Below the pieces are notes generated by a model. The model was given only the letters and a program-made list of their open reading frames with translations. It did no database searches and was not told the origin of the DNA. From assembly GCF_021462505.1 (NCBI RefSeq), contig NZ_JAKEDV010000008.1, positions 49,128-113,127 on the forward strand: a DNA stretch of 64,000 bases, given 5' to 3'. Within the stretch, counting starts at the first letter, position 1. Every line of letters begins with the position of its first letter. The position numbers and the translations under genes were made by a program. The DNA comes from Thermus brockianus (GTDB taxonomy: Bacteria > Deinococcota > Deinococci > Deinococcales > Thermaceae). Below, piece by piece: positions 2,812-27,827 of the stretch.

Positions 2812-2843
2812 ACCCTATGTTCTCCGTGTCAGGAATTGGTCAG
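2812..2843 (-). promoter_or_regulatory. Pho-type promoter of the tandem binding-protein operon
   Basis: Read on the minus strand: half-site CTGACCA (2843-2837), spacer ATTC, half-site CTGACAC (2832-2826), eight bases, TAGGGT (2817-2812), nine bases, then the ATG at 2802. The 7-4-7 layout with 11-bp periodicity is that of PhoB boxes. The same layout and the same eight-base gap to a TAnnnT hexamer recur before four other phosphate-linked units in this window. Binding by PhoB is inferred. Confidence 0.65.
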
Positions 2844-2860
2844 GGGGGCCTGGGCCCCCC
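2843..2860 (-). terminator. GC hairpin downstream of the first Ugp-type operon
   Basis: An 8-bp perfect inverted repeat (GGGGGGCC and GGCCCCCC) lies between the stop at 2879 and the next promoter and touches the first half-site of the Pho box. There is no T-run after it, so termination is possible but not certain. Confidence 0.45.
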
Positions 2861-2878
2861 CAACCTTTGTCCTAAAGA

Positions 2879-4159
2879 TCAGCGGCAGAAGGGCCTTAAG
2901 GCCTCCTCCACCCGCCTTTGGTCCTCCTTCGTGGCCTCCCGCACGTCCTTCCGGCCCAGGACCACCGCCTGTTCCGCCTCCGCGATGATGTCCTTGACCT
3001 GCTGGAGGTTGTAGACGGGAAGCTCAGCCCGGGCGTAGGCCAGTTGGTCGCGAGCTGTCTTGGCCTGGGGCCACTCCTGGAGGTACCTCTGCATGATGGG
3101 GAGGTTCCAACTGGAACGGCGGGCGGCCACATACCCCGAGTCCAAAGCCCACCGTGCTTGGAGTTCCGGGCTTGTCATGAATTTGATAAATCGGAGGGTG
3201 GCTTCCCGCTTCTTGGGATCGGAGCCCTTGAAGAGGTAGAAGTTGGCTCCGCCCGTGGGGGTCCCGTACCGCACCAGTTTGGGAAGGAAAGCGGTGCCGA
3301 AGGGGAAGCGGGCGTTGGTTCGGATAAAGCCCAAGGAGCCCGTGGAGTGGTAGATCATAGCCACCTTGCCGGCGGTGAAGTCTCCCGGGGTGGTCCCCCA
3401 GGCCACCACCCCCTCGGGGCTTACCCCGTGCTTCCGGGCGAGATCGGCTTTGAACTGCATCCCTTTACGCACCGGTTCCGTGTCCACCAGGACCTTGCAC
3501 CCCTTTCCTGCGGGGTCGTAAAGCAGACCCCCTGCTTGGATGGTGAGGGCTTCAAGGAGCCACGTGGAACGGTCCTCGGTGGGAATGGCTACTCCGTAGC
3601 GTACGATGCGCCCTTGGGCGTCCCGCTTGGTGAGGCGCTTGGCGTACTCCACCAGCTCGTCCCAGGTGGCGGGGGGTTTTTCCGGGTCTAGCCCTGCTTC
3701 TCGGAAAGCCTCTTTGTTGTAGTAGAGGATGGGCGTGGAGCGCTGGAAGGGGAGGCTATAGACCTTTCCATCCAGGGTGGAGTTCATCATGAAGGCGGGA
3801 AAGAAGTCGTTTACCGCCTGCTTTAGCTCGGGGTCCCTGGCGATGTAGGCGTCCAAGGGCTCTATGGCATCCAACGAGAGGAGGGTGTAGAGTTGTTGCG
3901 AAAGCAAGATGGCCGTATCCGGTGGGTTTCCCGCCTTTATGGCCGCCACCACCTTGGCCTGGTTTTCCTCATAGTTGCCCCCGAAAACCGTGTTTACCCT
4001 GATGTCCGGGTTCTTGGCCTCAAACTCGCGGACGTAGCCTTCAATAAAGCGGGCCAGAGGGCCCGCCACCCCCACCGGGTAGTAGAAGGTGATGGTGGTG
4101 CTCTGCGCTAGGCCAATCCCCAACAGAACCCAAAGGCCGGCTATCTTTCCTGTCCTCAT
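2879..4159 (-). CDS. UgpB-like ABC transporter substrate-binding protein
   Basis: Periplasmic binding protein of 426 residues in the glycerol-3-phosphate/sugar (CUT1) class. A signal peptide ends near IGLAQSTT (residue 19). Family features include YYPVGVAGPL after the signal, GNYEENQAKVVAAIKAGNPP near residues 62-81, LPFQRSTPILYYNKEAF near 134-150, and TGGANFYLF with EATLRFIKFMTSPELQARW in the C-terminal half. It is the last gene of a three-gene operon with two permeases (4172-5029 and 5019-5825), driven by a Pho-type promoter and divergent from alkaline phosphatase. This context favours uptake of glycerol-3-phosphate or glycerophosphodiesters. No ATPase is encoded with it. The second Ugp set at 23972-27777 has a related binding protein. 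Confidence 0.85.
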   Translation of the reverse strand: MRTGKIAGLWVLLGIGLAQSTTITFYYPVGVAGPLARFIEGYVREFEAKNPDIRVNTVFGGNYEENQAKVVAAIKAGNPPDTAILLSQQLYTLLSLDAIEPLDAYIARDPELKQAVNDFFPAFMMNSTLDGKVYSLPFQRSTPILYYNKEAFREAGLDPEKPPATWDELVEYAKRLTKRDAQGRIVRYGVAIPTEDRSTWLLEALTIQAGGLLYDPAGKGCKVLVDTEPVRKGMQFKADLARKHGVSPEGVVAWGTTPGDFTAGKVAMIYHSTGSLGFIRTNARFPFGTAFLPKLVRYGTPTGGANFYLFKGSDPKKREATLRFIKFMTSPELQARWALDSGYVAARRSSWNLPIMQRYLQEWPQAKTARDQLAYARAELPVYNLQQVKDIIAEAEQAVVLGRKDVREATKEDQRRVEEALRPFCR

Positions 4160-4171
4160 CCCTTCACCTCC

Positions 4172-5029
4172 CTAGCCTTTTAGCCCACTCCGGGCAAAGG
4201 CTTCCACGAAGCTTCGCTGGAAGAGCAGAAAGGCGGTGACCATGGGTAGGGCCACCAGTAAGGCTCCCGCAGCGATCAGGCCCCACTCCATCCCGCTCTC
4301 AGCGGAACGGGCGAAGCTGGCAAAGCCCAAAGAGAGCACGCGCTTTTCGGGGCTTTGGATGACCACAAGGGGCCACAGGAACTCGTTCCAGTGATAGACC
4401 AGGCTGACCAAGGCAAAGGCAGCGAGCTGGGGGCGAACTAGGGGCAGGAGAACCCGCCAGAGGACCTGCCAGGGCGTGGCCCCATCCACGTAAGCGGCCT
4501 CCACGAGTTCCTTGGGTATTTGCAGAAAGCCCTGGCGCAGCAGGAAGGCGCCCGTGGCCGAGGCGACATAGGGTAGGGCCAGGGCGGTTAGGGTATCGGC
4601 TAGGCCGAGCCTTTGAACGAGGATGAAGTTGGGCAGGATAAGCGCGGAGGCCGGGAGGAAAAGTTGGAGGAGGATCAGGTAGAAGAGGGTGTTATTCCCC
4701 CGTCCCTTTAGATGAGCAAGGGCAAAACCGGCGGTGGTCACGGTCAAGACTTGCACTAGAAGGAGGCCAAGGGTGAAGGCCAGGGTGTTGAGGTAAAGCC
4801 GAGGGAAGTCGGCGGAACTCCACGCAAGCTTGAGGTTTTCCAAGGTGAACCTGCCTAGCTCCCCGCGGTTGAGGTCTGCGGTAGGGGTGAAGGCGGCGAG
4901 GAGGGTATACCCTGCGATAAGGGCGTAGGGCAAGGCGAAGAGGAGGGCGGGTAGCTGGCGGGCACCCTCCCAAGAAATACGCCGCACGCGGCGGAGGAAG
5001 ACCTTAGGATGCACAGGGCTAAGCGTCAT
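4172..5029 (-). CDS. UgpE-like ABC transporter permease
   Basis: Inner-membrane permease (about 285 residues) of the CUT1 family, partner of the permease at 5019-5825. The start is the ATG at 5029 (MTLSPVHPKVFLRRVRR), overlapping the upstream stop by 11 bases; a longer frame to 5098 is only upstream read-through. Six hydrophobic helices can be followed. The cytoplasmic EAA loop is visible as VEAAYVDGATPWQVLWRVLL about 90 residues from the end, the site that contacts the ATPase. The product ends with FARSGLKG, typical of MalG/UgpE proteins. Twelve bases separate it from ugpB. Confidence 0.85.
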   Translation of the reverse strand: MTLSPVHPKVFLRRVRRISWEGARQLPALLFALPYALIAGYTLLAAFTPTADLNRGELGRFTLENLKLAWSSADFPRLYLNTLAFTLGLLLVQVLTVTTAGFALAHLKGRGNNTLFYLILLQLFLPASALILPNFILVQRLGLADTLTALALPYVASATGAFLLRQGFLQIPKELVEAAYVDGATPWQVLWRVLLPLVRPQLAAFALVSLVYHWNEFLWPLVVIQSPEKRVLSLGFASFARSAESGMEWGLIAAGALLVALPMVTAFLLFQRSFVEAFARSGLKG

Positions 5030-5825
5030 AGTGTACACCTCGCTCCAAGCGGGGTAGAGCGGTGAGGGCGAGGAGGGTGAGAGCAGTGAGCAGGACAAGG
5101 CTCAGGGCCCCCGCTTGGGAAAAGTCAAAGTACTCAAATCCTAGGGTGTAAATGCGGTAAAGAAGATGGTCCGTGGCGCCCATAGGGCCCCCTTTCGTGA
5201 GCACGAAGATGTGGTCCACGTTCCTCAGGGCCCCCAGCACGGCCATTACCCCCACGAAAAAGGTGGTGGGGGAGAGCAGGGGCAGGGAAATCCGCAAGAA
5301 GGTGGCGACCCGCCCGGCCCCGTCAACCCGGGCGGCCTCGAGGAGCTCCCTGGGAATTGCCTGGAGCCCAGCCAGGTAGTAGAGCATGTACAGGCCCGCA
5401 TCCTTCAGGATGCCCACCAGGGCCACGCTCAAGAAGGCGCTAAGGGGTTCCCCTAAGGGGTTTTGTAGCCCTAGTGCCTGGAGGAGGTTGCGAAGGGGAC
5501 CCAAGGGGTTGAGCAGGTAGAGGAAGACAGCGGCAAAGGCCACCGTGGGCAGGATGACGGGGTGAAAGATAAGAAGCCGGGCAAGCAGCCTTAGCCGGCC
5601 GTCCCCCTCCACCGCCACGGCGGCCAACAGGCCCAAGGCTACGGACAAGGGTACCGTGAGGAGCGTGTAAAGGGCGGTAACCCTGAGGGCGTTGAGGTTC
5701 TCCGGGGCAAGCAGCTTAGGGAGTGCGGGAATGCCCTCCTTAGCCGCCACCGCAAAGGGGAGGTAAGTAAAGGCTGCCAGAAAGATGAGGGTGGGGAGGA
5801 GGAGCAAAGCCCAGGGTCCCTTCAT
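5019..5825 (-). CDS. UgpA-like ABC transporter permease
   Basis: First gene of the operon; 268 residues, inner-membrane permease of the MalF/UgpA type. The EAA loop is ELLEAARVDGAGRVATFLRI in the second half, followed by DHIFVLTKGGPMGATDHLLY, a characteristic MalF/UgpA segment. The N-terminus (MKGPWALLLLPTLIFLAAFT) is the first transmembrane helix. The ATG at 5825 is 10 bases from the TAACGT -10 box of the Pho-type promoter at 5836-5867. The stop overlaps the start of the UgpE-like gene. Together with alkaline phosphatase on the other strand it forms a divergent phosphate-scavenging pair. Confidence 0.85.
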   Translation of the reverse strand: MKGPWALLLLPTLIFLAAFTYLPFAVAAKEGIPALPKLLAPENLNALRVTALYTLLTVPLSVALGLLAAVAVEGDGRLRLLARLLIFHPVILPTVAFAAVFLYLLNPLGPLRNLLQALGLQNPLGEPLSAFLSVALVGILKDAGLYMLYYLAGLQAIPRELLEAARVDGAGRVATFLRISLPLLSPTTFFVGVMAVLGALRNVDHIFVLTKGGPMGATDHLLYRIYTLGFEYFDFSQAGALSLVLLTALTLLALTALPRLERGVHYDA

Positions 5826-5835
5826 GCCTGAGAAG

Positions 5836-5867
5836 ACGTTACCTGCGTCCTGTCAGGACAGGGTCAG
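5836..5867 (-). promoter_or_regulatory. Pho-type promoter of the first Ugp operon
   Basis: On the minus strand: CTGACCC (5867-5861), TGTC, CTGACAG (5856-5850), eight bases, TAACGT (5841-5836), ten bases, ATG at 5825. The half-site region also contains the perfect dyad GTCCTG T CAGGAC at 5847-5859. Layout and spacing equal those at 2812, 23898 and 27785. Confidence 0.65.
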
Positions 5868-5942
5868 CTCGGGTTGGGCCTGGTGGGTACCTTGCGGCCT
5901 TCCGGCGGTAGCGGAGGGGAAAACCGGCGTTAGGGCCCGGCC

Positions 5943-5974
5943 ATGACACGCTCCTGAAAAGGCACCTATAGTTT
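5943..5974 (+). promoter_or_regulatory. phoA: Pho-type promoter of alkaline phosphatase
   Basis: On the plus strand: ATGACAC (5943-5949), GCTC, CTGAAAA (5954-5960), then eight bases to TAGTTT (5969-5974), or six bases to the better hexamer TATAGT (5967-5972). The half-sites ATGACAC and CTGAAnn are the same pair as before the second Ugp operon (27799-27816). ATGACA with 18 bases to TATAGT would also serve as an ordinary -35/-10 pair. Confidence 0.6.
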
Positions 5975-5995
5975 TGGTCCTGGAGGTGATATGCC

Positions 5996-7501
5996 GTGAA
6001 AAGGCGTGACCTTTTAAAAGGCGGCCTCATGGCGGGGGCCCTGGCCCTTATGCCCAGGGGAAGGGCCCAGGGGGCTCCCCAGAACGCTCCTTCCCTAGGG
6101 CGGCGGTACCGGAACCTCATCGTCTTCGTCTACGATGGCTTTTCCTGGGAGGACTACGCCGTGGCCCAGGCCTACGCCAGAAGGCGCCAGGGGCGGGTCC
6201 TCGCCCTGGAAAGGCTTCTTGCCCGCTACCCTAACGGCTTGGTGAACACCTATAGCCTCACCAGTTACGTCACCGAGTCCAGCGCCGCGGCCAACGCCAT
6301 GTCCTGCGGGGTGAAGACCGTAAACGGGGGCCTGGCCATCCATGCGGATGGCACGCCCCTCAAGCCCTTCTTCGCCGCCGCCAAGGAGGCGGGGAAGGCG
6401 GTGGGCCTGGTCACCACCACCACCGTCACCCACGCCACACCCGCAGGGTTTGTGGTGTCCAACCCCGACCGCAACGCCGAGGAGCGGATTGCCGAGCAGT
6501 ACTTGGCGTTTGGGGCCGAGGTTTACCTGGGCGGTGGGGACCGGTTCTTCAACCCGGAAAGGCGACAGGACAAAAAGGACCTCTACGCCGCCTTCGCCCA
6601 GGCGGGTTACGGGGTGGTGAAGACCCCGGAGGAGCTCGCCCGCACCAACGCCAGCAAGCTTCTTGGGGTCTTTTCCGATAGCCACGTCCCTTACGAGGTG
6701 GACCGGCGCTTCCAGGGGGTGCGGGTGCCGAGCCTAAAGGAGATGGTCCAGGCGGCCTTGCCCCGCTTGGCCTCCTATCGCAACGGCTTCGTCCTCCAGG
6801 TGGAGGCGGGCCGGATTGACCACGCCAACCATCTGAACGATGCCGCGGCTACCCTCTGGGATGTCCTTGCCGCCGATGAAACGCTAGAGCTTCTCACCGC
6901 CTTCGTGGACCGCAACCCCGACACCCTCCTCCTCTTGGTTTCCGACCACGCCACCGGGGTCGGGGCGCTTTACGGGGCGGGGCGGAGCTATTTGGAGAGC
7001 TCCACCGGGATTGACCTCCTCGAGGCACAAAAGGCGAGCTTTGAGCACATGCGTCGCCAGCTTGGCAACAACCCCGACGCCGCCCAGGTGAAGGAAGCCT
7101 ACCGGTCCATGAAGGGCGTGGCCCTCACGGACGAGGAGGCGGAACGGGTGGTGCGGGCCATCCGCGAACGGGTCTACTGGCCGGAGGGCGTGCGCCAAGG
7201 GGTGCAGCCGGACAACACCATGGCTTGGGCCATGGTTCAGCGCAACGCAGCTAAGCCTGACCGGCCCAACATCGGCTATAGCTCTGGGCAGCACACGGCA
7301 AGCCCCGTGGTTCTCGCCCTCTACGGGCAGGGCCTCCGCTTCTTGAACCTGGGGCTTGTGGACAACACCCACGTTTTCCGCCTCATGGGGGAGGCCCTGG
7401 GCATCCGCTACCAGAACCCGGTGATGAGCGAGGAAGAGGCCTTGGAGGCGCTTAAGGCGCGGCCCCAAAGCGTGCGTCACCCTGAGGACGTTTGGGCCTA
7501 G
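5996..7501 (+). CDS. phoA: Alkaline phosphatase, Tat-exported
   Basis: Hydrolyses phosphate monoesters outside the cytoplasm; 501 residues. The GTG start at 5996 follows a clear ribosome site (GGAGGTGAT, 5982-5990). The N-terminus carries a twin-arginine signal (RRDLLKGG, residues 3-10), indicating folded export. Active-site features of the PhoA family are present: the nucleophile serine block TESSAAANAMSCGVKT, the metal ligand block RIDHANHLNDAAATLWDV, LLLVSDHATG, and the late histidine block SSGQHTASPVVLALYG. It is monocistronic, with a terminator at 7522-7542, and divergent from the Ugp operon; both have Pho-type promoters. Induction by phosphate starvation is inferred from that promoter and from the family. 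Confidence 0.93.
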   Translation: MKRRDLLKGGLMAGALALMPRGRAQGAPQNAPSLGRRYRNLIVFVYDGFSWEDYAVAQAYARRRQGRVLALERLLARYPNGLVNTYSLTSYVTESSAAANAMSCGVKTVNGGLAIHADGTPLKPFFAAAKEAGKAVGLVTTTTVTHATPAGFVVSNPDRNAEERIAEQYLAFGAEVYLGGGDRFFNPERRQDKKDLYAAFAQAGYGVVKTPEELARTNASKLLGVFSDSHVPYEVDRRFQGVRVPSLKEMVQAALPRLASYRNGFVLQVEAGRIDHANHLNDAAATLWDVLAADETLELLTAFVDRNPDTLLLLVSDHATGVGALYGAGRSYLESSTGIDLLEAQKASFEHMRRQLGNNPDAAQVKEAYRSMKGVALTDEEAERVVRAIRERVYWPEGVRQGVQPDNTMAWAMVQRNAAKPDRPNIGYSSGQHTASPVVLALYGQGLRFLNLGLVDNTHVFRLMGEALGIRYQNPVMSEEEALEALKARPQSVRHPEDVWA

Positions 7502-7521
7502 GCGAGGGGCTCCTCCTTCCG

Positions 7522-7542
7522 CCCGCCCCCGCAGGGGGCGGG
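7522..7542 (+). terminator. Rho-independent-type terminator after alkaline phosphatase
   Basis: Nine-base perfect stem CCCGCCCCC and GGGGGCGGG with a 3-base loop, 20 bases after the stop codon, followed by the pyrimidine-rich TCCTTCTCT. Confidence 0.75.
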
Positions 7543-7556
7543 TCCTTCTCTGGGGC

Positions 7557-7591
7557 TTGACTTTTTGAGATTGCATTGTCAATATCAGTCA
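7557..7591 (+). promoter_or_regulatory. Promoter and candidate metal-regulator operator of the zinc cluster
   Basis: TTGACT (7557-7562) is a good -35; a weak -10 (CAATAT at 7580) lies 17 bases on. The region is AT-rich in a very GC-rich genome and carries an outer inverted repeat TGACT (7558-7562) and AGTCA (7587-7591), with an inner imperfect dyad GATTG...CAATATC. This resembles a Fur/Zur-family operator over a promoter; the regulator is not identified. Confidence 0.4.
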
Positions 7592-7607
7592 CTTGAGGAG
7601 GTGCGCC

Positions 7608-8786
7608 GTGCGCGAGTGGACCAAGATCTTCCTCGGGTTTACCCTCCTTTTCCTCTCCCAGGCCCTGGGCCACGCCGCCGTACCTGAGAGGCCGGAGGCC
7701 TTTGAGGCGGAGGCCCGGCTCTTCGTCCTGGACAACCGGCCGGGGTATAGCCGTCTCCTCGCCTTGGACCTGCCCGGGGGCCAGGCGGTGGCGGAGCTCT
7801 CCCTGCCTCCCCGGGGCATGAGCCTGGTGGCCACGCCCTCGGGCCGCTACCTTCTGGTGTCCCGGGGTCGGGATACGGACCGGCAGTGGCTCACCGTGGT
7901 CTGGACGGGGAAGGAGGAGGGGCGTTGGAGCCGGCCCGTGATCGCCAAGAGCTTCCTTCTGGGACGGGGGTGGAACATCGGCCACGGCTCGGAGGCCTAC
8001 ACCTTGGGGGGCAAGCTCCTCGCCTTCGCCGAGCGGGACGCCCTGGCCTTCCGTTTTGATGAGGAGGCTTTGGACCCGAAGGCGGCCTTCCAGGCGGAGA
8101 CCCTGAGGCTCCCCAACCCCGACCACTACCACGTGGTGGAGGCCCCGGAAGGTACGTACCTCACCCTCTTGGCCCGGGGGCAGGTGGTCCTCTTTGACCG
8201 GGAGCTTCGGGCGGAGCGGGGGCGCTTCGCCTGCCCTGTGGAGCACGGGGAGGCCTTCCACCCCGAGACGGGCCGGAGCTTTTTCGCCTGCGCGAAGGAC
8301 GTGCTGGTCCTGGAGGGGGGTAGGGAGCTTGCCCGCCTGGCCTACCCCGTGGGCGAGCGGGTTGGGGCTTTCCTGAAGGGGGATGGGGTTTTCTTCGGCT
8401 ACTCCGACAAGGTTACCCACCTGCAGCGCCTGGACCCTCGAGGCCCCCAGCTAACCCCCATCCCCCTCGGGGGCGCGCTGCTAAGGGCCAAGGCCGACGG
8501 GAAGCGGGTTTACGTCCTCCTCACCGACGGGAGGCTCCAGGTGCTGGAGGGGCGGGAAGGGAAGCTTCTTAGGGAGCTCCGCCTTGCCCGGCCTTTCCCG
8601 GAGATGGAGGAGGACACCGGGGGCGCCATCTACCCCGACCTGGCCCCCTGGCCCGAGCGGGGCCTCCTCTACGTGAGCCTGCCCCATCTGGGCCTCGTGG
8701 CCGAGGTGGACGGGGAGAGGGGCCGGGTGGTCCGGTACCTGCACACGGGGGGTAGCCCCACCCGCCTGGTTCTGGTGCGGCCATGA
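7608..8786 (+). CDS. Secreted beta-propeller protein, AztD-like metallochaperone candidate (copy 1)
   Basis: 392 residues. The start is the GTG at 7608, six bases after GAGGAGG; an upstream in-frame TTG would sit inside that ribosome site. A hydrophobic signal (KIFLGFTLLFLSQALGHA) is followed by repeated strand-turn units typical of a YVTN/WD-like propeller (LFVLDNRPGYSRLLALDL, SGRYLLVSRG, GKRVYVLLTDGRLQVLEG). Histidines cluster in loops (NIGHGSEAY, NPDHYHVVEA, CPVEHGEAFHPETGR), as in AztD, the periplasmic chaperone that hands zinc to AztC. It is paralogous in design to 10087-11238 and shares an operon with the AztC-like binding protein. Function as zinc chaperone is inferred. Confidence 0.65.
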   Translation: MREWTKIFLGFTLLFLSQALGHAAVPERPEAFEAEARLFVLDNRPGYSRLLALDLPGGQAVAELSLPPRGMSLVATPSGRYLLVSRGRDTDRQWLTVVWTGKEEGRWSRPVIAKSFLLGRGWNIGHGSEAYTLGGKLLAFAERDALAFRFDEEALDPKAAFQAETLRLPNPDHYHVVEAPEGTYLTLLARGQVVLFDRELRAERGRFACPVEHGEAFHPETGRSFFACAKDVLVLEGGRELARLAYPVGERVGAFLKGDGVFFGYSDKVTHLQRLDPRGPQLTPIPLGGALLRAKADGKRVYVLLTDGRLQVLEGREGKLLRELRLARPFPEMEEDTGGAIYPDLAPWPERGLLYVSLPHLGLVAEVDGERGRVVRYLHTGGSPTRLVLVRP

Positions 8787-9214
8787 ACCCCATGCCCGTC
8801 TTCATGTACCTCCTGGGGGTGGATGCGGCCCAGGGCCTCCTCGAGGCCCTGGGGTACCGGAAGGCTCCCCATCCCAAGGGGGTGGGCTCCAGCCTCTACC
8901 TGGGGGAGGAGGCGGTGCTCCACTCCACGGGGCTCTGGTACCGGGGCGTGCTCTACCTCAGGCCCAAGGAGCGGTTCTACCGGGCTTCCCTCCCGCCCTA
9001 TCCCCCGGAAGTGGCCCCCCAAGCCGAGCCCCTTCCCTTTGGGGAGGGCCTCGCCCACTACCTGCCCTTCATCCAGGCCCACGAGGAGAGGGTGCGGGCC
9101 CTCCGGGGGGAGGGACGGGAGCGGCTTTTGCGCCACCTCCCTCCCGTTGCCCGCCGCCACCTGAAGGAGTGGAAGTCCCTTTGGAGGAGCGATGAGGAGG
9201 CTGCTCGCCCTTAG
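8783..9214 (+). CDS. Hypothetical protein of the zinc cluster
   Basis: 143 residues of unknown family. The start overlaps the upstream stop (ATGA) and the end overlaps the binding-protein gene by 23 bases, so it is embedded in a translationally coupled operon. It has no signal peptide or membrane segment. The N-terminal stretch MPVFMYLLGVDAAQGLLEAL is amphipathic; the C-terminal third is highly basic and acidic (HEERVRALRGEGRERLLRHL). The rhythm of the first 60 residues suggests a small alpha/beta cytosolic protein. I do not recognise it. Confidence 0.7.
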   Translation: MNPMPVFMYLLGVDAAQGLLEALGYRKAPHPKGVGSSLYLGEEAVLHSTGLWYRGVLYLRPKERFYRASLPPYPPEVAPQAEPLPFGEGLAHYLPFIQAHEERVRALRGEGRERLLRHLPPVARRHLKEWKSLWRSDEEAARP

Positions 9215-10046
9215 CCTCTTCGCCGCCTCCGCCCTGGCCCAGCTCCAGGTGGCGGCCACCACCACCGTCTTGGCGGACCTGGTGCGCCAGGTGGGAGGGA
9301 ATAGGGTCCGGGTGGAGAGCGTAGTGCCCCCCGGGGCCGATCCCCACGCCTTTGACCTGCGGCCTTCCACCGCCTCCCAACTCTCCCGGGTCCGCCTCCT
9401 CTTCGCCAACGGCTTGGGCCTGGAGCCTTACCTGCCAAAGCTCAGGGCCCTTCTACCCCCGGGGGCCAGGGTGGTGGAGCTCGCCCCGGGGATGCCCGAC
9501 CCCATCTGCGGCCTCCTGGGCCTCCGGGAAAAGGGGGTCCACCTCCACGGGGACTGCGACCCCCACCTGTGGCTGGACCCCACCTACGCCCTGCGCTACG
9601 CCGAGCGCATTGCGGCGGCGCTCGCCCGCCTGGACCCGAGGGGGGAAGGGGCGTACCGCAAGAACCTCGAGGCCTTCCGCCAAGCGGTGGAGCGGGAGGA
9701 CCAGGCCCTTTCCGCCTGCCTCGAGGGGAGGCGGCTCTGGGTGGTGGTGAGCCACCTGTCCCTCTCCTACCTGGCGCGGCGCTACGGCCTGGAGATCGTG
9801 GGGGCTCTTAAGGACGCCCACGGCCAGGAGGGAAGCGTCCGGGAACGCCTGGCCCTCTTTAAGGAGGCGGAGGCCAAGGGGGTGGACCTGGTGGTGGCGG
9901 AGCCCCAACTGGATCCTGCTCCTTTGCGCCGGCTGGCGGAGGAGCTTGGGGCGAGGCTCGTGGTCCTCTACACCGACGCCTTGGACCGGAGGGTGCCCAC
10001 GTACCGGGACCTCCTCCGTTGGAACCGGAATGCCTTGTGCCCGTAG
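9192..10046 (+). CDS. Metal ABC transporter substrate-binding protein, ZnuA/AztC-like
   Basis: Periplasmic zinc (or manganese) binding protein, 284 residues, cluster A-I family. Signal peptide MRRLLALSLFAASALAQ. Metal-ligand histidines of the family are visible in GADPHAFDLRPS, in CDPHLWLDPTYA and in VVSHLSLSYLARRYGL; the C-terminal acidic ligand is probably in YTDALDRRVPTY. A short His/Cys loop (VHLHGDCDPH) precedes the second ligand, shorter than the long His-rich loop of ZnuA and more like AztC. The ATG at 9192 follows GGAGGAGC. No permease or ATPase lies in this operon. Flanked by two propeller proteins, it fits an Azt-type zinc system with its membrane parts elsewhere. Confidence 0.85.
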   Translation: MRRLLALSLFAASALAQLQVAATTTVLADLVRQVGGNRVRVESVVPPGADPHAFDLRPSTASQLSRVRLLFANGLGLEPYLPKLRALLPPGARVVELAPGMPDPICGLLGLREKGVHLHGDCDPHLWLDPTYALRYAERIAAALARLDPRGEGAYRKNLEAFRQAVEREDQALSACLEGRRLWVVVSHLSLSYLARRYGLEIVGALKDAHGQEGSVRERLALFKEAEAKGVDLVVAEPQLDPAPLRRLAEELGARLVVLYTDALDRRVPTYRDLLRWNRNALCP

Positions 10047-10086
10047 CCCTTTACGGGGCCTTTGGCCTCGAGGGAAAGGAGGAACG

Positions 10087-11238: not shown

Positions 11239-11254
11239 CGCCTGTTTCCCTTTC

Positions 11255-11281
11255 GGCCCCGGCCATGGGCCGGGGCCTTTT
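11255..11281 (+). terminator. Strong terminator of the zinc cluster
   Basis: Long GC inverted repeat (GGCCCCGGC... ...GCCGGGGCC) followed directly by TTTT, 17 bases after the stop codon of the last gene. Confidence 0.85.
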
Positions 11282-11288
11282 GTGCTCC

Positions 11289-11387: not shown

Positions 11388-11390
11388 CCT

Positions 11391-20801: not shown

Positions 20802-22472
20802 ATGGTAACGGTAAAGCGGGAGTACAAGCCCTGGTACTGGGTCAACGAGTGGACGCGGCTTTACATGAGCCGCGGTTACCTCCTTCCCGGGGTGAGCGTG
20901 GAGGAGCGGGTGCGTCAGATCGCCCTCCGGGCCGAGGCGCTTACGGGGATCCCGGGTTTTGCGGAGAAGTTTGCGCGCTACGTGGCCTACGGCTGGTATT
21001 CGCTGGCCACTCCCGTCTGGGCCAACTATGGCCTCAAGCGGGGGCTTCCCATCTCCTGCTACGGCACCTACGTGGAGGACGATACCGCCTCCATCCTTCG
21101 GGCGGTGGCGGAGATCGGCATGATGAGCAAACAGGGGGGCGGAACCTCGGTCTACCTTGGGGAGCTTCGGCCTCGAGGGGCCCCCATCCGCGATAACGGG
21201 GAGAGCAACGGCTCCTATGCCTTCGCCAGCCTTTTTGACCGGGTGATTGAGGTCTTCAACCAAGGTTCTACCCGTCGCGGCCAGTGCGCTGCCTACCTGC
21301 CCATAGAGCACCCTGACTTCTGGGAGTGGACCCGTATCCAACGGGAAAACTCCGAGATCCAGTCCCTTTTCTGGGGCGTTTCTGTGGGGGATGCTTGGTT
21401 GGAGTCCATGATTGCCGGGGATCGGGAAAAGCGGGAGCGCTGGGCCGCCGTCCTCAAAAGCCGTGCGGAGGTGGGTATCCCGTACATCTTTTTCCGGGAC
21501 AACGCCAACCGGCAGGCTCCCGAGGTTTTCCGCAAGCTGGGTAAGACGATTTACGCCAGCAACCTCTGCACGGAGATCATGCTCCCCTCCAGTCCGGAGG
21601 AGAGCTTCGTGTGTTGCCTCTCCTCTCTAAACTTACTCCACTTTGATGAGTGGAAGGACACGGATGCTGTGGAGACCTTGGTCATCTTCTTGGACTCCGT
21701 TTTGGACGACTTCATAGAGAAGGCGGAGGGCATCCCCTACATGGAGCGGGCCGTGCGGTTTGCCAAGCGGTACCGCGCTATTGGGATAGGGGTCCTGGGG
21801 TGGCACAGCTACCTACAGTCCAAGGGCATTCCCCTGGAGAGCGCCGATGCCCTTTTCCTCAATAACCTTATTTTTAAAACCATTCGGGAGCGGGCAGAAG
21901 AGGCTTCCCGGTGGCTGCGTGCCCGCCATCCGGAAGATGAGTTGGCCGAGGTCATGGAACGGCGCAACGCCACCCTTCTCGCCATCGCTCCCACCAAGTC
22001 CAGTTCCTTCATCCTCGGCCAGGTATCCCCTTCCATTGAGCCCTATACCAGCAACTACTACCTCAAGGACCTGCAAAAGGCACGGGTTCCCTTCAAAAAC
22101 CCCTTTCTGGAGGAGCTCCTCCGGGAGAAGGGCAAGGACGAGGAAAGGGTGTGGCGGAGCATCCTGGAGCACAACGGTTCGGTGCAGCACCTGGACTTCC
22201 TGAGCGAGGAGGAAAAGGCTGTCTTCAAAACCTTCGCCGAGGTTTCGCAGAAGACCCTGGTGAACCTGGCTGCGGCCCGGCAACGGCACATTGACCAGGG
22301 GCAGTCCCTGAACCTGGTGATCCACCCCGAAGCTCCGCCCAAGGATGTAAACGAGCTTGTCCTCCACGCCTGGCGCTCTGGCCTCAAGAGCCTTTACTAC
22401 CAGTTCAGCGCCAGCGCTGCCCAGGCCTATAGCCGTGACCTTCTCCTCTCCTGCCGGGCTTGCGAGGGCTAG
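20802..22472 (+). CDS. nrdA: Class I ribonucleotide reductase, alpha (catalytic) subunit
   Basis: 556 residues, short because there is no N-terminal ATP-cone, so no overall-activity regulation by ATP/dATP is expected at that site. Catalytic elements: PISCYGTYVEDD (substrate-reducing Cys), SKQGGGTSVYLG, ASNLCTEIMLPS (radical Cys), SFVCCLSSLNLL (partner Cys), LKSLYYQFSASA (Tyr pair of the radical path) and a C-terminal CRACEG swinging thiol pair. Ten bases after nrdB with AAGGAGG. Makes dNDPs from NDPs. Its stop overlaps the stop of the convergent glycosyltransferase gene. Confidence 0.92.
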   Translation: MVTVKREYKPWYWVNEWTRLYMSRGYLLPGVSVEERVRQIALRAEALTGIPGFAEKFARYVAYGWYSLATPVWANYGLKRGLPISCYGTYVEDDTASILRAVAEIGMMSKQGGGTSVYLGELRPRGAPIRDNGESNGSYAFASLFDRVIEVFNQGSTRRGQCAAYLPIEHPDFWEWTRIQRENSEIQSLFWGVSVGDAWLESMIAGDREKRERWAAVLKSRAEVGIPYIFFRDNANRQAPEVFRKLGKTIYASNLCTEIMLPSSPEESFVCCLSSLNLLHFDEWKDTDAVETLVIFLDSVLDDFIEKAEGIPYMERAVRFAKRYRAIGIGVLGWHSYLQSKGIPLESADALFLNNLIFKTIRERAEEASRWLRARHPEDELAEVMERRNATLLAIAPTKSSSFILGQVSPSIEPYTSNYYLKDLQKARVPFKNPFLEELLREKGKDEERVWRSILEHNGSVQHLDFLSEEEKAVFKTFAEVSQKTLVNLAAARQRHIDQGQSLNLVIHPEAPPKDVNELVLHAWRSGLKSLYYQFSASAAQAYSRDLLLSCRACEG

Positions 22473-23164
22473 CGGAGCCGCAGGTGGTCCTTGAGGGGGG
22501 TAGGGGGTAGGCCGTGTTTGGCCCGGAGGCGCGCCAGGTAGAAGGCCCTTTCCTCTATACGTTTCCCGTAGCTTTGGTTCTGCCCGTGGACCCGAACGCC
22601 GATATTGGGGCCCCGCAGGTAGTGGAAGGGGAGGCCCGCCTGGTGGGCGCGGAGCCAAAGGTCCCAATCCCAGTAGTCCCCCATGCTGGGGTCAAGGCTG
22701 CCCAAGGCGAGGAGTGTGGCCCGGGGTAGGGCTGTGCCGGAGGCCAGGATGCGGTTGTCCTGGAGAAGCCACTCCCCCGCCTCCCCCGGGGCAAAGGGGA
22801 GGACCTCGAGGCCTACGAGGAGGACCCCTTCCCCGTAGGCTACCCCCTCCCCTCTTCCGAGGGCCCGCCAGACCCGGTGCAGGTAGGTGGGGGTGAGGAG
22901 GAGGTCATCGTCGTCCAGGAAGAGGACGATTTCCCCTTGGACTTCCTCCAGTCCCGTGAGGCGGGCCTCCACCTGCCCCCGGCCCCGGTTCCAAAGAGCC
23001 CGGATCCTGGGATCTTGGAGGGAGGAGGCCGCCTCGAGGCCCTCCCCCTCCCCGTCCTCCACCACCAGGGCCTCAAAGGCCGTGAAGGTCTGCCGAAGGA
23101 GGGAGCCCAGGGCCTCTAGCAAAAGGCCAGGGCGGCCCTTGGTGGGGATGAGGACGCTAATCAT
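22469..23164 (-). CDS. Glycosyltransferase family 2
   Basis: 231 residues, GT-A fold. Starts [20 protein letters not shown] with the nucleotide-binding N-terminus; the metal/donor motif is the acidic run in [14 protein letters not shown] near residues 79-92; [20 protein letters not shown] and [16 protein letters not shown] are acceptor-side blocks. It would add a sugar to a polysaccharide or lipid; the product is unknown. It is transcribed with or after surE (8-base overlap at 23157-23164) and convergent with nrdA. Confidence 0.85.
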
Positions 23165-23891
23165 GGGCTAGGCTTGGCTGCAGGCGTTTTTCGTCCGTGA
23201 GGTCCAGCCGCAAGGGGGTGGCGGCGATAAAACCCTGCTCCACCGCCCAGCGGTCCGTCCCCTCCTCCGCCTCTTGGAGGGGCTTGGCGGCGAACCAGTA
23301 GAGGGGCCTGCCCATGGGGTCCTCCCCCGGCACCACCACCCCCTCGTAGGCCCGCACCGACTGCCGCGTCCAGAGGAAGCCCTTGGGCTCGAGGGGAAGG
23401 TTCACGTTCACCAAGAAAGGAGCGTTGAGCCGGAGGAGGGTTTCCAAGGTACGCACGATCCATGGCTTCAGGCGCTCAAAGTCTGGGGTTCTGCCGTTTA
23501 GGGGCACGCTAAAGGCGGCGGCGGAGAGGCCAAAGAGCCGCCCCTGTTTGGCGGCGGCCACCGTGCCGGAGTGCCAGATCTCGTGCCCCAGATTGGTCCC
23601 CAGGTTTACCCCCGATAGCACGAGGTCTATGGGGCCAAAGAGGTGTAGCCCCAAGGCCACGCAGTCGGCGGGGGTTCCCCGGACCCGGTAGGCGGGGAAA
23701 TCGGGCCCCGGCAAGGGGGCGGGATGGGGATAGGCCCTCACGGGATGGGCGATGGTGATGGCGTGCCCCGTGGCGCTTTGCTCCGTTTCCGGGGCCACCA
23801 CGAAGACTTCCCCCAGGCGGGTTGCCGCCTCGGCCAAGGCCCACAGTCCCGGGCTAAAGATGCCGTCGTCGTTGGTCACCAGAATCCTCAT
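23157..23891 (-). CDS. surE: 5'/3'-nucleotidase SurE
   Basis: 244 residues; hydrolyses nucleoside monophosphates, releasing phosphate. The N-terminal metal site [15 protein letters not shown] is the SurE hallmark; [37 protein letters not shown] and [20 protein letters not shown] complete the active site. The ATG at 23891 is 6 bases from the TACCCT -10 box of a Pho-type promoter (23898-23929). That would place this cytosolic phosphatase in the phosphate-starvation response, which is inference. SurE of Thermus thermophilus is a known structure. Confidence 0.93.
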
Positions 23892-23897: not shown

Positions 23898-23929
23898 AGG
23901 GTAGGGGCCGGGTGTCAGGAGGCCATCAG
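23898..23929 (-). promoter_or_regulatory. Pho-type promoter of surE
   Basis: On the minus strand: CTGATGG (23929-23923), CCTC, CTGACAC (23918-23912), eight bases, TACCCT (23903-23898), six bases, ATG at 23891. The second half-site is identical to that before the tandem binding-protein operon. The box directly follows the terminator of the upstream operon. Confidence 0.62.
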
Positions 23930-23971: not shown

Positions 23972-25291
23972 TTAGCGGCTTGCCACGCTCCGGTTATAGC
24001 GTTCCAGCGCGGCATCCGCCCGGGCCTTGGCCTCCTTCAAGGCATCCCGGGCGGGTTTGCCCCGGAGGACTTCCTCCCAAGCGGCCTGCACGTACTGGCG
24101 GATCTCGGGGAAAGCGCCCATCAAGCACCCTGCGCTGGCGCTATTGACCTTACTGGTACCCAGTTGTTGGATCGCCGTGGTGTAGTTGGGCTGGCGCACG
24201 TGGGCTTGGCGCACCTCGGGAAGTTCGGTCACCCCCTTCACCACGGGGAAGTAGCCGGTGTCCAGGTGCCACTGGGCTTGGGTTTTGGGCTCCAAGAGGA
24301 AGCGCACGAAGCGCCAGGCGGCCTGGGTTTCCCCTTCGGAGAAGCCCCTTAGGACGTAAAGGGCTGCGCCGCCAATGGCCACCCCGTTCCGTTCCCGCAG
24401 GTAAGGGTAGTAGGCGGTGCGCAGGGGGAAGCGCCCCCCCACCTGGCGAAGAACCCCCGTGAGGCTCGCCGTGGAGTAGGCGGCGATGGCCGCCTGGCCC
24501 TGGGCGAAGAGGCTTTGGGAGTCAGCCCAGTTCCGGCCCGTGTTGGCCGCCACGCCTTCCCGCACCAGGCGGGCGTAAGTGTCCAGGAAGGCCACAGCGG
24601 CCTCGTTGTCAAAGGTCACCGCCGTGGCCCTGGCCTTGCGGCCGTTTTCGTTGTTGCAGAAGTACTCGCCGGAGTTGTAGGAGATCTGCTCCACGAACCA
24701 GGAGTCAATGGGGATGGAGAGGCCGTAGCGCACCGTGCGCCCCTGGGCGTCCTTTTTGGTGAGCTTGCGGGCAGCCTCCTCCAGGTCCTTTAGGGACCAG
24801 GTCGGCCTGTAGGGGATTCCGGCTTCCTGGAAAGCGGCCATGTTGAAGTAGAGGATGGGGTTGGAAGAGTTAAAGGGGAGGCCGTAGAGTTTACCCTCGA
24901 GGGTGTAGTAGCTCCTGGGTTGGGGCAGGAAGCGGTCCAGGTCAAACCCGTCCCTTCGGGCCAGATCCTCCAGCGGCACCACAGCCCCGGAGTCCGCCAT
25001 GATCCGGGCCCCGATATCGTAAACCTGGATCACGTGGGGGTAGCCCCGGCCTGCCCGCAGGGCGGCGAGGAGCTTGTTGATGCCGTCGTCGTAGCTCCCC
25101 ACGTATTGGCTTTTCACCTGGACAGCGTTTTGGCTCCGGTTGAACTCCTGCACGAGCTTTTCCGTGGCCTCTCCTAACACCCCGCCCATGGAGTGCCAGA
25201 ACTCCACGGTCACCCGTTGCGCCTGGACGGGGGCTAGGAGGAGCCATCCCAAGGCGCTAACCTTGGTCAATCCCAAGAACCATGTCCGCAT
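23972..25291 (-). CDS. UgpB-like ABC transporter substrate-binding protein (second system)
   Basis: 439 residues, CUT1 binding protein. Signal peptide ends near APVQAQRV. Blocks shared with UgpB: VTVEFWHSMGGVLGEATEKL, LVQEFNRSQNAVQVKSQYVG, SYDDGINKLLAALRAG, LPFNSSNPILYFNMAAFQEA and AIGGAALYVLRGFSEGETQA. E. coli UgpB has the same FWHSMGG and FNxSNPxLYYN-like features, closer than the first system at 2879. It is the last gene of a four-gene operon behind a Pho-type promoter. Probable ligands are glycerol-3-phosphate or glycerophosphodiesters. Confidence 0.86.
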   Translation of the reverse strand: MRTWFLGLTKVSALGWLLLAPVQAQRVTVEFWHSMGGVLGEATEKLVQEFNRSQNAVQVKSQYVGSYDDGINKLLAALRAGRGYPHVIQVYDIGARIMADSGAVVPLEDLARRDGFDLDRFLPQPRSYYTLEGKLYGLPFNSSNPILYFNMAAFQEAGIPYRPTWSLKDLEEAARKLTKKDAQGRTVRYGLSIPIDSWFVEQISYNSGEYFCNNENGRKARATAVTFDNEAAVAFLDTYARLVREGVAANTGRNWADSQSLFAQGQAAIAAYSTASLTGVLRQVGGRFPLRTAYYPYLRERNGVAIGGAALYVLRGFSEGETQAAWRFVRFLLEPKTQAQWHLDTGYFPVVKGVTELPEVRQAHVRQPNYTTAIQQLGTSKVNSASAGCLMGAFPEIRQYVQAAWEEVLRGKPARDALKEAKARADAALERYNRSVASR

Positions 25292-25303
25292 ACGCCACCT
25301 CCT

Positions 25304-26119
25304 TTATCCCTTCAGCCCGCCCAGGGCGATGCCCCGGATGAAGGCCCTTTGGGCGAGCAGGAAGGCGAACAGGGTAGGGAGAAGAACGAGGACAGCTCCC
25401 GCGGCCACCACGTTCCAACGGGCCACCTCTTCGTTCAGGAGGAAGTTCAGGGCGATCTGAGCCGTCTGCATCTCCCGGCTTTTGGTGACCACCAGAGGCC
25501 AGAGGTACATGTTCCAGGTACCGATAAAGGTGAGGGCGGCCAGGGCGCCAAGGGCGGGGGCGGTGAGGGGCAGGGCCACGTGGCGCAGGACCTGCCCGTG
25601 GGTGGCCCCGTCTATGCGGGCGGCGTCAAAGTAGTCCTCCGGAATGGTCCTCAGGGTTTGGCGGAGGAGAAAGACGCCCAAGGGGCTTGCCAGGAAGGGG
25701 ACGGTGAGGGCCCAGTAGGTGTCCAGCCACCCAAGGCGGTCCACCAGGAGGTAAAGGGGCAAGAAGGTTACCTCCCCGGGAACCAGGAGGAGGGCCACCG
25801 CTAGGCCAAAGAGGGCTTCCCGGCCCCGGAAGCGTAGCCGCGTGAGGGCGTAGGCGGCGAGGAGGCTCATGGCCAGGACCCCCAGGGTCACGGCGGTGGA
25901 AACGAGGAAGCTATTGAGGAGGAAGCGGGCCAGGGGAAACTTGGCCAGGGCCTCGGCGTAGGGGGCGAGGGTGGGGTTTGGGGGTAGAAGGGTGGGGGTG
26001 TAGAGGTCCCCCTCGCTCCGGAGGCTTGCGGAAAGTAGGGTGAGGAGGGGAAGGGTGAGGAGGAAGGCGTAGGCGGTGGCGAGGAGGTAGGTGGGGAGAA
26101 GTCTCAAGCGCTTACGCAT
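25304..26119 (-). CDS. UgpE-like ABC transporter permease (second system)
   Basis: 271 residues from the ATG at 26119 (MRKRLRLLPTYLLATAYAFL), which overlaps the upstream permease stop by 8 bases; the longer open frame to 26161 is read-through of that gene. EAA loop: YFDAARIDGATHGQVLRHVA. Ends RAFIRGIALGGLKG, the usual UgpE/MalG tail. Twelve bases to ugpB-like. Confidence 0.86.
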   Translation of the reverse strand: MRKRLRLLPTYLLATAYAFLLTLPLLTLLSASLRSEGDLYTPTLLPPNPTLAPYAEALAKFPLARFLLNSFLVSTAVTLGVLAMSLLAAYALTRLRFRGREALFGLAVALLLVPGEVTFLPLYLLVDRLGWLDTYWALTVPFLASPLGVFLLRQTLRTIPEDYFDAARIDGATHGQVLRHVALPLTAPALGALAALTFIGTWNMYLWPLVVTKSREMQTAQIALNFLLNEEVARWNVVAAGAVLVLLPTLFAFLLAQRAFIRGIALGGLKG

Positions 26120-27023
26120 AGTGCACCCTCCGGCCCAAAAGCCAGAACTGGAGCGCCGCAAGCGCCAGGAGGAGGAGGAAGAGGAGGAAGGCTTCGGAAG
26201 CCGCCAAGGGTACTTGGAAGTTGAAGAAGGCGTCCTGGTAAACTCGGTAAATCCAGACCATGGTGCTCTCGGCGGGTCCTCCCCGGGTGAGGAGGTGGAT
26301 CTGCCCGAAGGCGGTGAGGCTTTTGAGCACCACCAGGAGCCCCACCAGGAAGAGGGTGGGGGAGAGGAGGGGGAGGGTGATGCGGAAGAAGCGGGTCCAG
26401 GGGCCCGCCCCGTCCACGGTGGCCGCCTCGAGGACCTCCTCGGGAATGTTCTGGAGCCCCGCCGTGAGGAGGATGGCGGTGAAGCCCACCCCGGCCCAGG
26501 CGGTGACCACCGCCAAGGTGGGCAGGGCCAGCTCGGGGGAGGTGAGCCAGGGAAGGGGAGGGAGGCCGAGGGCGGCTAGGGTCCGGTTGGCCCACCCCCC
26601 CACGGGGTGGAGAAACCATCCCCAGGCCACCGCGGCCACGGCGGTGGGGACGGCGGTGGTGAGGAAGAAGAGGGTGCGGAAGAGGGTCACGCCGGGGTAA
26701 GGGCGGTAAACCAAGAGGGCGGCGAGGAGCCCCAGGAGGAGCTCCAGGGGCGCGGTGATGAGGGCGAAGACCAGGGTGGTTTGGACGCTTTTCCAGAACT
26801 CGGGGCGGGAGAGGGCCTCGAGGTAGTTGGCTAGCCCCACCCATTCCCGGCCCTTCCCGAAAAGGTTTTCCTGGTGGAGGGAAAGCCAAAGGGCCTCCCC
26901 CACGGGCAGGATGAGGAAGAGGAGGAAGAGGCCGTAGGCGGGGAGGAGGAAGGGCAAGGGCTCCAGGGCATACCGCCTCGCCCCGCCCTTTTCCTGGGTG
27001 AGAACCCGTTCCACGGGGGCCAC
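26112..27023 (-). CDS. UgpA-like ABC transporter permease (second system)
   Basis: 303 residues, GTG start. MalF/UgpA type with an initial charged segment and six helices. EAA loop VLEAATVDGAGPWTRFFRIT, followed by FGQIHLLTRGGPAESTMVWI, the region that in UgpA/MalF follows the EAA helix. It starts one base after the isomerase-like gene stop. No ATPase in the operon. Confidence 0.86.
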   Translation of the reverse strand: MAPVERVLTQEKGGARRYALEPLPFLLPAYGLFLLFLILPVGEALWLSLHQENLFGKGREWVGLANYLEALSRPEFWKSVQTTLVFALITAPLELLLGLLAALLVYRPYPGVTLFRTLFFLTTAVPTAVAAVAWGWFLHPVGGWANRTLAALGLPPLPWLTSPELALPTLAVVTAWAGVGFTAILLTAGLQNIPEEVLEAATVDGAGPWTRFFRITLPLLSPTLFLVGLLVVLKSLTAFGQIHLLTRGGPAESTMVWIYRVYQDAFFNFQVPLAASEAFLLFLLLLALAALQFWLLGRRVHYA

Positions 27024-27024
27024 C

Positions 27025-27777
27025 CTACCGGTCCTCCGTCAGGGAAACGTCAAGCCCTTGGCGTAAGCGCGCCAGGTAGGCCAGGGAAGCCCGGGGATCC
27101 CCCCGCACCTCCAGAACCAGGGGAAGGCTAAGGTAGGGAGGGAGCCAGCGGGCATGGTCCAAAACCCCCTGCCCGAGGTTCCAGTGGCGGTCGTAGACCC
27201 CGTCGGTGTCGTTGAGGTGCAGGTGCTCTGGTCCGAGGGCAAGCCAGGGCTCGGGCTTTGGGGTGGCGCTGAACACCCGGGCATGGGCGGCGTCAAAGCA
27301 GAAGCCCAGGGCTTCTGGGTAGGCGGCGAGAAGGGGTTGCAAGGCCTCGGGGCTGGGCTCGTGGGTGTTTTCCAGGAGAAGGCGGATGCCCAAGGCTTGC
27401 GCCCTCCGTACCACCGCCCTGAGCTTTTCCGCCAGGCGCTCCGCCCGGGCCTGGGCCTCCTCGGGGGTCCGGCCATGGGGAATGCCCGAGTGGAAGACCG
27501 TCCGGTCTGCGCCCAGTTCTGCCGCTCGTTCCAGGCCGAAGAGGAGGCGCCTTAGGGTGAGGGCCCGCACCTCGGGGTCGGGGGAGAGGAGGTCCAGGTT
27601 CCAGAAGGGAAGGTGGGCGGAAACGGGTTCCTTTAGCTCCTGGGCCAGGCGGTGGAAAAGGGCGTCGTCTTCCAGGTGCTCTGGGTCCAGGTAGACCTCG
27701 AGGCCCACCCCGAGCGCCTCCAGTTGGTTGCGTTGGGGTAGGACCTGGTCCAGGGGAAGGGCTAGGCGGAGGTCCAT
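27025..27777 (-). CDS. TIM-barrel sugar phosphate isomerase/epimerase-type protein (AP endonuclease 2 family)
   Basis: 250 residues, start ATG at 27777 (MDLRLALPLDQVLPQRNQLE). An in-frame GTG at 27786 is rejected because it overlaps the TAGGGT -10 box. Xylose-isomerase-like TIM-barrel blocks: PVSAHLPFWNLDL, GADRTVFHSGIPHG, IRLLLENTHEPSPEAL, GFCFDAAHARVFS, LHLNDTDGVYDRHWNLGQG. The His, Glu and Asp at strand ends would bind a divalent metal. It heads the second Ugp-type operon, where other bacteria have a phosphodiesterase (UgpQ). It may process the imported phosphorylated compound; the true reaction is unknown. Confidence 0.72.
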   Translation of the reverse strand: MDLRLALPLDQVLPQRNQLEALGVGLEVYLDPEHLEDDALFHRLAQELKEPVSAHLPFWNLDLLSPDPEVRALTLRRLLFGLERAAELGADRTVFHSGIPHGRTPEEAQARAERLAEKLRAVVRRAQALGIRLLLENTHEPSPEALQPLLAAYPEALGFCFDAAHARVFSATPKPEPWLALGPEHLHLNDTDGVYDRHWNLGQGVLDHARWLPPYLSLPLVLEVRGDPRASLAYLARLRQGLDVSLTEDR

Positions 27778-27784
27778 GGACCCC

Positions 27785-27827
27785 ACCCTATGCGTTTCCC
27801 TTCAGGGGTGTGTCATCAAGCCTTCTG
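27785..27827 (-). promoter_or_regulatory. Pho-type promoter of the second Ugp operon
   Basis: On the minus strand: CAGAAGG (27827-27821), CTTG, ATGACAC (27816-27810), ACCC, CTGAAGG (27805-27799), eight bases, TAGGGT (27790-27785), seven bases, ATG at 27777. The last two half-sites match those before alkaline phosphatase. Three consecutive 11-bp steps are visible, though the outermost is weak. Confidence 0.65.

Follow-up and report, generated by a model that had tools for sequence, protein, structure and literature searches.

The PHO box is a direct repeat of two 7-nt half-sites set 4 nt apart, with a consensus that depends on the species (PMC4415409, available text). In Escherichia coli the two repeats have an 11-bp period and adjoin the -10 element, and the box of Streptomyces PhoP (GTTCACC) likewise consists of 11-nt direct repeat units that serve a phosphate regulon (PMC4415409). 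In the Deinococcus-Thermus phylum, TAnnnT next to an open reading frame (ORF) drives leaderless mRNA (PMC12340547, available text). Here, we analysed a 64-kb window of the 2.35-Mb Thermus brockianus genome (G000, contig C23, positions 49128-113127; the whole stretch is called the window below), in which a repeat of the PHO-box kind precedes phosphorus-related genes. Very probably, the 11-bp repeat CTGACCnnnnnCTGAC, mostly 8-9 bp before TAnnnT at the window boxes and at phosphorus-gene promoters in 27/27 Thermus genomes, is a tandem site for a predicted PhoB. An earlier reading of the window from its letters (the sequence-only reading) knew of no published Thermus Pho-box definition, and among the matches listed, in literature outside RegPrecise and subscription papers, there was none for Thermus or Deinococcus. 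The term PhoB is absent from the main text of PMC12340547; the available part of PMC4229858 mentions phosphate starvation only for PhoH, and that of PMC1274311 names neither PhoB nor a Pho regulon.

Repeat architecture in the window and the genus

The sequence-only reading described five promoters built from two 7-mers, 4 bp between them, then 8 bp and a TAnnnT hexamer. All five were recovered at the same coordinates (boxes 1 to 5 below); the shared architecture is real, and the window holds six boxes, the sixth, with its hexamer, at 27022-27053. That reading's description of an 11-bp repeat beside the -10 as the known PhoB layout agrees with PMC4415409. The features are as follows.

2826..2843, minus strand: Pho box 1, CTGACCA-attc-CTGACAC, before the binding-protein operon; matrix score 28.0; syntenic in pTB1
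2812..2817, minus strand: -10 hexamer TAGGGT; ATG 2802, 9 nt on
893..2802, minus strand: two extracellular binding-protein genes (1858-2802, 893-1855), first of unit 1, weakly PhnS2-like
5850..5867, minus strand: Pho box 2, CTGACCC-tgtc-CTGACAG, before ugpA1-ugpE1-ugpB1; matrix score 27.6; syntenic in pTB1
5836..5841, minus strand: -10 hexamer TAACGT; ATG 5825, 10 nt on
2879..5825, minus strand: ugpA-like (5019-5825), ugpE-like (4172-5098) and ugpB-like (2879-4159) genes; best NCBIfam models UgpA, UgpE and UgpB, all below equivalog cutoffs
5943..5960, plus strand: Pho box 3, ATGACAC-gctc-CTGAAAA, before phoA; matrix score 19.9; syntenic in pTB1
5967..5974, plus strand: phoA -10, TATAGT 5967-5972 (6-bp gap) or TAGTTT 5969-5974 (8-bp gap)
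5996..7501, plus strand: alkaline phosphatase phoA, GTG start; PF00245, 8.7e-63
23912..23929, minus strand: Pho box 4, CTGATGG-cctc-CTGACAC, before surE; matrix score 22.0
23898..23903, minus strand: -10 hexamer TACCCT; ATG 23891, 6 nt on
23157..23891, minus strand: surE nucleotidase; TIGR00087 above cutoff
22469-23164: glycosyltransferase gene, next after surE
27799..27816, minus strand: Pho box 5, ATGACAC-accc-CTGAAGG, before the PF01261 gene of the second Ugp unit; matrix score 19.7
27785..27790, minus strand: -10 hexamer TAGGGT; ATG 27777, 7 nt on
27025..27786, minus strand: PF01261 TIM-barrel gene, likely start ATG 27777; close homologue of TTHB071 (PDB 3ayt/3ayv)
27036..27053, minus strand: Pho box 6, TTGACGT-ttcc-CTGACGG, in the 3' end of the PF01261 gene, before ugpA2; matrix score 29.2, the window's best
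27022..27027, minus strand: -10 hexamer TAGGGT of box 6, 8-bp gap; GTG 27014, 7 nt on
23972..27023, minus strand: ugpA2-like (26112-27023), ugpE2-like (25304-26161) and ugpB2-like (23972-25291) genes

An ATG follows the hexamer at four of the five sites (9, 10, 6 and 7 nt on), as the sequence-only reading had it; phoA instead has a GTG start, at 5996, behind a Shine-Dalgarno-like GGAGGTGA (5982-5989). The full pattern, [CA]TGA N7 CTGA N11 TANNNT (repeat, 8 bp, TAnnnT), gave five matches in the window and none in 40 dinucleotide shuffles, bearing out the view that chance was unlikely. Without the hexamer, the repeat in the window alone was not significant (five matches against a shuffle mean of 2.1 and maximum of 6) and was rejected as proof by itself. 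A matrix trained on 161 genus sites, with those of the window's own genome excluded, ranked the six boxes at the top (19.7-29.2), above a next score of 14.1 and a best score of 12.8 in 10 block-shuffled windows. The 14.1 candidate, at position 1725, was rejected, being inside a gene and without a -10. Window positions 2600-8000 align with T. brockianus plasmid pTB1 at 97% coverage and 84.7% identity, and the 37 plasmid records matched all belong to Thermus.

Nor is the regulon local, as had been supposed, since boxes occur across the genome and across the 27 genomes of the genus. In the window's own genome the strict pattern matched seven times (reversed control 0). Of the two matches outside the window, one stands before a binding-protein gene at C20:84135 (SBP_bac_8, same BLAST cluster as UgpB) with a TIM-barrel gene behind it, and the other before an arsC-like gene that passes the LMWPc cutoff but not those of the NCBIfam arsenate-reductase models. 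A looser scan of that genome (14 matches, control 5) added box 6 and sites before phoB, a 5'-nucleotidase gene and a further UgpB-like gene; its matches at C1:47417, C12:253384 and C18:322300 were rejected as likely chance. Across the genus, with totals summed over per-genome tables, the strict pattern gave 86 matches (reversed control 0) and a relaxed 11-bp-repeat pattern 174 (control 1). Changing the period to 10 or 12 bp left 7 (control 1) and 2 matches (control 0), so that the 11-bp phase is the signal. The overlapping strict and relaxed sets yielded 172 unique sites after identical 80-bp stretches were merged; merging and contig ends cost a few sites, and those of the window's own genome were pooled with the ones of a same-species genome (G011).

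These sites share the PHO-box arrangement of two 7-nt direct repeats 4 nt apart, and the box adjoins the -10 in place of a -35, within the 7-9 bp gap range searched. The strongest positions in the 8-bp class read C-CTGACC-N4-C-CTGAC-(A/C), giving a half-site CTGAC(C/A); whatever the search patterns prescribe, bases or gaps, does not on its own count as evidence of conservation. The gap of exactly 8 bp first proposed holds at the five window sites and at 108 of the 172 genus sites, with 9 bp at 55 and 7 bp at 9. Script-chosen start codons fall 5-11 nt behind the hexamer at 127 sites and 12-25 nt behind it at 34, the remaining 11 lying elsewhere, and certain of the script's choices are wrong (arsC-like at 0 or 24 nt); the start is 6 nt behind it at 25/26 phoB and 15/16 surE sites. 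With the majority of start codons this close (5-11 nt) behind the -10, we infer that most boxed mRNAs would be leaderless. Leaderlessness itself is not new, and these promoters resemble the TANNNT "-10-motif" promoters of the phylum (PMC12340547, available text), with TAnnnT a few bp before the ORF. Unlike those promoters, they carry a regulator repeat at a fixed distance ahead of the -10, and this repeat is the new element.

The sequence-only reading also held that all five units have a phosphate-related member. For unit 1 the link comes mainly from its box, and PhnS2 is the best model match of its binding proteins, below cutoff. The second Ugp operon does have its box as the fifth unit, with the PF01261 TIM-barrel gene in first place. 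UgpB is the best model for ugpB2, below cutoff; ugpA2 and ugpE2 were named by BPD_transp_1 and position, and ugpA2 clusters with ugpA1. Between the two Pho clusters, 9192-16861 contains genes for zinc transport (ZnuA) and for FecCD/Peripla_BP_2 transporters of the B12 or iron-chelate type, none of them with a box.

Genes behind the boxes

The sequence-only reading had staked its interpretation on the sites not being spread at random, and 158 of the 172 unique genus sites precede phosphorus-linked or arsC-like families, a concentration that supports a predicted Pho regulon. The largest groups are ugpB-like or PF01261 genes (33), phoB (26), arsC-like genes (20), 5'-nucleotidases (19), ugpA (16) and surE (16), followed by phoA (11), a PhnS/AfuA-like binding protein (11), phytase-like genes (5) and a PhnC-like ATPase (1). 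The names come from family models for one or a few members of each cluster and from BLAST clustering for the others, with hand checks; some draft frames are broken (s019, s020, s084, s148). A 63-73-aa ORF of unknown family begins 6 nt behind the box's -10 in five Thermus genomes (L030:1276-1494, L046, L142, L156, L177), and a pyruvate-kinase-barrel protein follows a box in two (L160:1-1221, L056; PF00224 in one scanned).

As had been expected, matches precede pst, pho and ugp genes: the box lies before pstS and before phoB in 27/27 genomes each, and before phoA and ugp genes too. For phoB, 26 genomes were read directly, and in the same-species 27th the identical box lies 1.66 kb before phoU, as in the window's own genome. 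The pst -10 is mostly CAGAGT-like, which is why TAnnnT patterns miss it, and we retrieved pst operons by PstC model, without the motif. The repeat TGAC-N6-CTGAC stands upstream of pstS in 26 PstC-fetched loci; in the 27th genome (G020), the first pst locus stopped short of the promoter and the added stretch contains the repeat, with the pstS frame broken in the draft. It starts 16-76 nt before a long ORF in 25/26 loci (in L226 the script took an overlapping frame), occurs on the operon strand once per ~3.8-kb locus and twice in L249, and accompanies a GGGAGGT-like ribosome site. The CAGAGT-like -10 would fit the tolerance of T1C, the only change at positions 1, 2 and 6 without significantly lower interaction (PMC12340547, available text). 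Some pst promoters (L224, L238-L242, L246, L247, L249, L440) have a second, looser repeat 26 bp upstream of the first, an arrangement like that of complex PHO operators. When arsC-like genes were fetched by protein, the box preceded 7/7 named Thermus loci, part of them from the genomes of the genus scan, against a match in 1/73 non-Thermus homologues, among the matches listed.

The targets of E. coli PhoB include phoA, phoB, pst and ugp, and the Thermus boxes stand before the same genes, with a PhoB-like regulator encoded alongside a kinase and PhoU. Differences from E. coli are the leaderless layout and the arsC-like and TIM-barrel members. Compared with Streptomyces, the half-site is another one, and simple and complex operators there contrast with a mostly single pair in Thermus, where the pattern sought one pair (PMC4415409). 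On all the sequence evidence, the Thermus set is a Pho regulon that uses a new lineage variant of the classic PHO box.

The predicted regulon extends to other Thermaceae and to part of a neighbouring family. Other Thermaceae genera gave 93 matches in 23 genomes (control 11), and we read 86 of the 87 sites listed for 22 genomes, the six matches of the remaining genome (G049) not being among them. Close relatives (59-77% identity) of Thermus targets follow 29 of the 86: phoB 15, arsC-like 5, 5'-nucleotidase 2, phoA 2, phytase-like 2, surE 1, PhnC-like 1 and binding protein 1. The other 57 precede a microprotein (16), weak matches of 27-42% (10) or nothing linked (31). The neighbouring family (f4) gave 19 matches in 14 genomes (control 0), and 11 of the 13 loci read precede phoB (6), pstS (4) or pstC (1); one PhoB-like protein, one PstS and PstC were named by family model, the other phoB genes by BLAST and the other pstS genes by eye. 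Families f2 and f3 had a phosphorus gene at 0/8 loci read. A phylum-wide pattern outside Thermaceae (171 matches in 61 genomes, control 35) was set aside as too noisy for a claim.

The regulator and competing explanations

In the window's own genome, a box at C19:210713 precedes a phoB-phoR-phoU operon with phoB first. The PhoB candidate (223 aa; Response_reg and Trans_reg_C domains) has PhoB as its best NCBIfam model at 199 bits, followed by MtrA at 172, and PhoU is above its NCBIfam cutoff. The kinase contains HisKA, HATPase and a sub-cutoff PAS match; its 19-residue hydrophobicity means peak at 0.63 (E. coli PhoR part, 2.46), and with no strongly hydrophobic stretch it would be cytosolic, unlike E. 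coli PhoR. Aligned with E. coli PhoB, the candidate has the same residue at 94 of 222 positions. In the DNA-binding domain R193, T194, H198, R203, T217 and R219, residues of the DNA-contacting kind, are kept, and V197, R200 and R201 are replaced by Q, L and Q; both Q recur in 40 of the 41 Thermaceae PhoB sequences aligned, the remaining one being a truncated fragment. Residue contacts were not found in the available part of PMC3348028.

Low phosphate would lead the PhoR-type kinase to phosphorylate PhoB. By analogy with E. coli, a head-to-tail pair of PhoB molecules would then occupy the repeat, at the usual place of the -35, and recruit sigma-A polymerase to the -10. A short leader is possible at phoA, pst and many ushA-type genes, most other mRNAs being predicted leaderless. 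With a box before phoB in 27/27 genomes, the system would be autoregulated. The predicted targets comprise pst, phoBRU, phoA, Ugp-type transporters, 5'-nucleotidases, SurE, the TTHB071-like TIM barrel and the arsenate-reductase-like gene.

Several observations weigh against this interpretation. Nine of the 172 sites precede genes without a clear phosphorus link (the 63-aa ORF 5, the pyruvate-kinase-barrel protein 2, an MIP channel 2) and five are unassigned, two of these adjoining insertion-sequence genes by eye; binding proteins, TIM barrel and arsC count as phosphorus-linked by chemistry or context; and sites in one genus are not independent. Outside the genus the signal is noisier, as the 29 of 86 sites indicate. 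The kinase next to phoB (L223:1920-2810, G000:C19) is weakly PnpS/PhoR-like, and its lack of a strongly hydrophobic stretch is a further point against. The half-site CTGAC(C/A) differs from the CTGTCAT of the E. coli phoA box (CTGTCAT-N4-TTGTCAC), where TATAGT follows after 10 bp; in Thermus the gap is mostly 8-9 bp. This mismatch excludes an "E. coli-type" box and not a PHO box, because the consensus varies by species (PMC4415409); the E. coli phoB box itself has CTGACGC as its second half-site, which places the Thermus half-site near what E. coli PhoB already sees. Two further points, a PhoB candidate under its equivalog cutoff (199 vs 296 bits) and eight Trans_reg_C proteins over cutoff in the genome, would suit another OmpR-family response regulator that reads the repeat and happens to control the same genes. 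We regard this as improbable, given that the box precedes phoB in 27/27 genus genomes and 15/22 other Thermaceae genomes and a phoB-like gene in six neighbouring-family loci, and that PhoB is the best model by 27 bits.

The relatedness of one genus's sites, many of them orthologous, also allows for boxes inherited with their gene families and out of use. Against such disuse, almost every flanking column upstream in the 8-bp class carries <0.35 bit compared with an invariant core (partly fixed by the pattern), the box is common to unrelated gene families, and boxes 1, 2 and 3 have syntenic counterparts in pTB1, 3/3 kept in diverged intergenic DNA; we judge it very unlikely. The chance is slighter still, close to negligible, that these are ordinary sigma-A promoters in which CTGAC/TTGAC is the -35 and the repeat a by-product, although TTGAC resembles the -35 TTGACA and promoters with TAnnnT beside the ORF are common in the phylum (PMC12340547). 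The 11-bp phase is required (174 vs 7 and 2 matches) and matches cluster before phosphorus genes. Moreover, among the half-sites, the elements considered as -35, none lies at the classical 17 +/- 1 bp from the -10; counted as hexamers, the first is ~20-21 bp and the second ~9-10 bp away, and 17 bp enhances activity where 22 bp does not (PMC12340547, available text). A PhoB tandem site thus remains the reading we prefer.

Candidate members and their meaning

Boxes precede relatives of ugpA at 15 further genus sites (16 in total), some orthologous to box 6, and box 6 lies inside the end of the PF01261 gene, which makes an internal Pho promoter likely in the second Ugp unit. The longest ugpA2 ORF begins within the -10 hexamer; GTG 27014 agrees with its relatives and is likely the start.

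The candidate new members of the regulon are arsC, a TIM barrel of the TTHB071 type and, in genera other than Thermus, a membrane microprotein. Phosphate transporters also let arsenate in (PMC5658604, available text), and co-induction of arsC would make sense for this reason; that text treats arsenic control alone. The closest solved sequence to the TIM barrel is TTHB071, and similarity to CbiR, a cobamide-remodelling phosphodiesterase, is weak (40 bits vs a cutoff of 105). TIM-barrel genes adjoin binding-protein or Ugp-type genes in two own-genome units (the C20:84135 copy by eye); that the protein acts as a phosphodiesterase is a guess. Thermaceae other than Thermus have this box and -10 ahead of a hydrophobic membrane microprotein of 32-39 aa, at one site in each of 16 genomes out of 22 (e.g., L272:1538-1645, L266, L255, L300, L316, L306), two of the sites recognised only via an alternative frame. 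The start codon follows after 6-7 nt, or after 17 nt in two genomes, and a stop cuts one frame at 28 aa. The one scanned copy had no Pfam or NCBIfam match.

Tentatively, and with somewhat more doubt than confidence, we propose that Thermaceae and the neighbouring family possess a re-specified, mostly leaderless Pho regulon, in which a Q/Q-helix PhoB reads CTGAC repeats as a -35, arsC defence accompanies phosphate uptake, a TTHB071/CbiR-like phosphodiesterase is coupled to Ugp-type import, and outside Thermus a mostly leaderless 32-39-aa microprotein takes part. The work offers a Pho-box definition, open to testing, for a model thermophile group, together with candidate phosphate-controlled promoters for Thermus and a likely corrected ugpA2 start. 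It also puts forward two protein families without an assigned function as candidates for the phosphate-starvation response, and predicts that arsenate reductase would be induced on phosphate starvation, when more phosphate importers, and hence more importers of arsenate, would appear.

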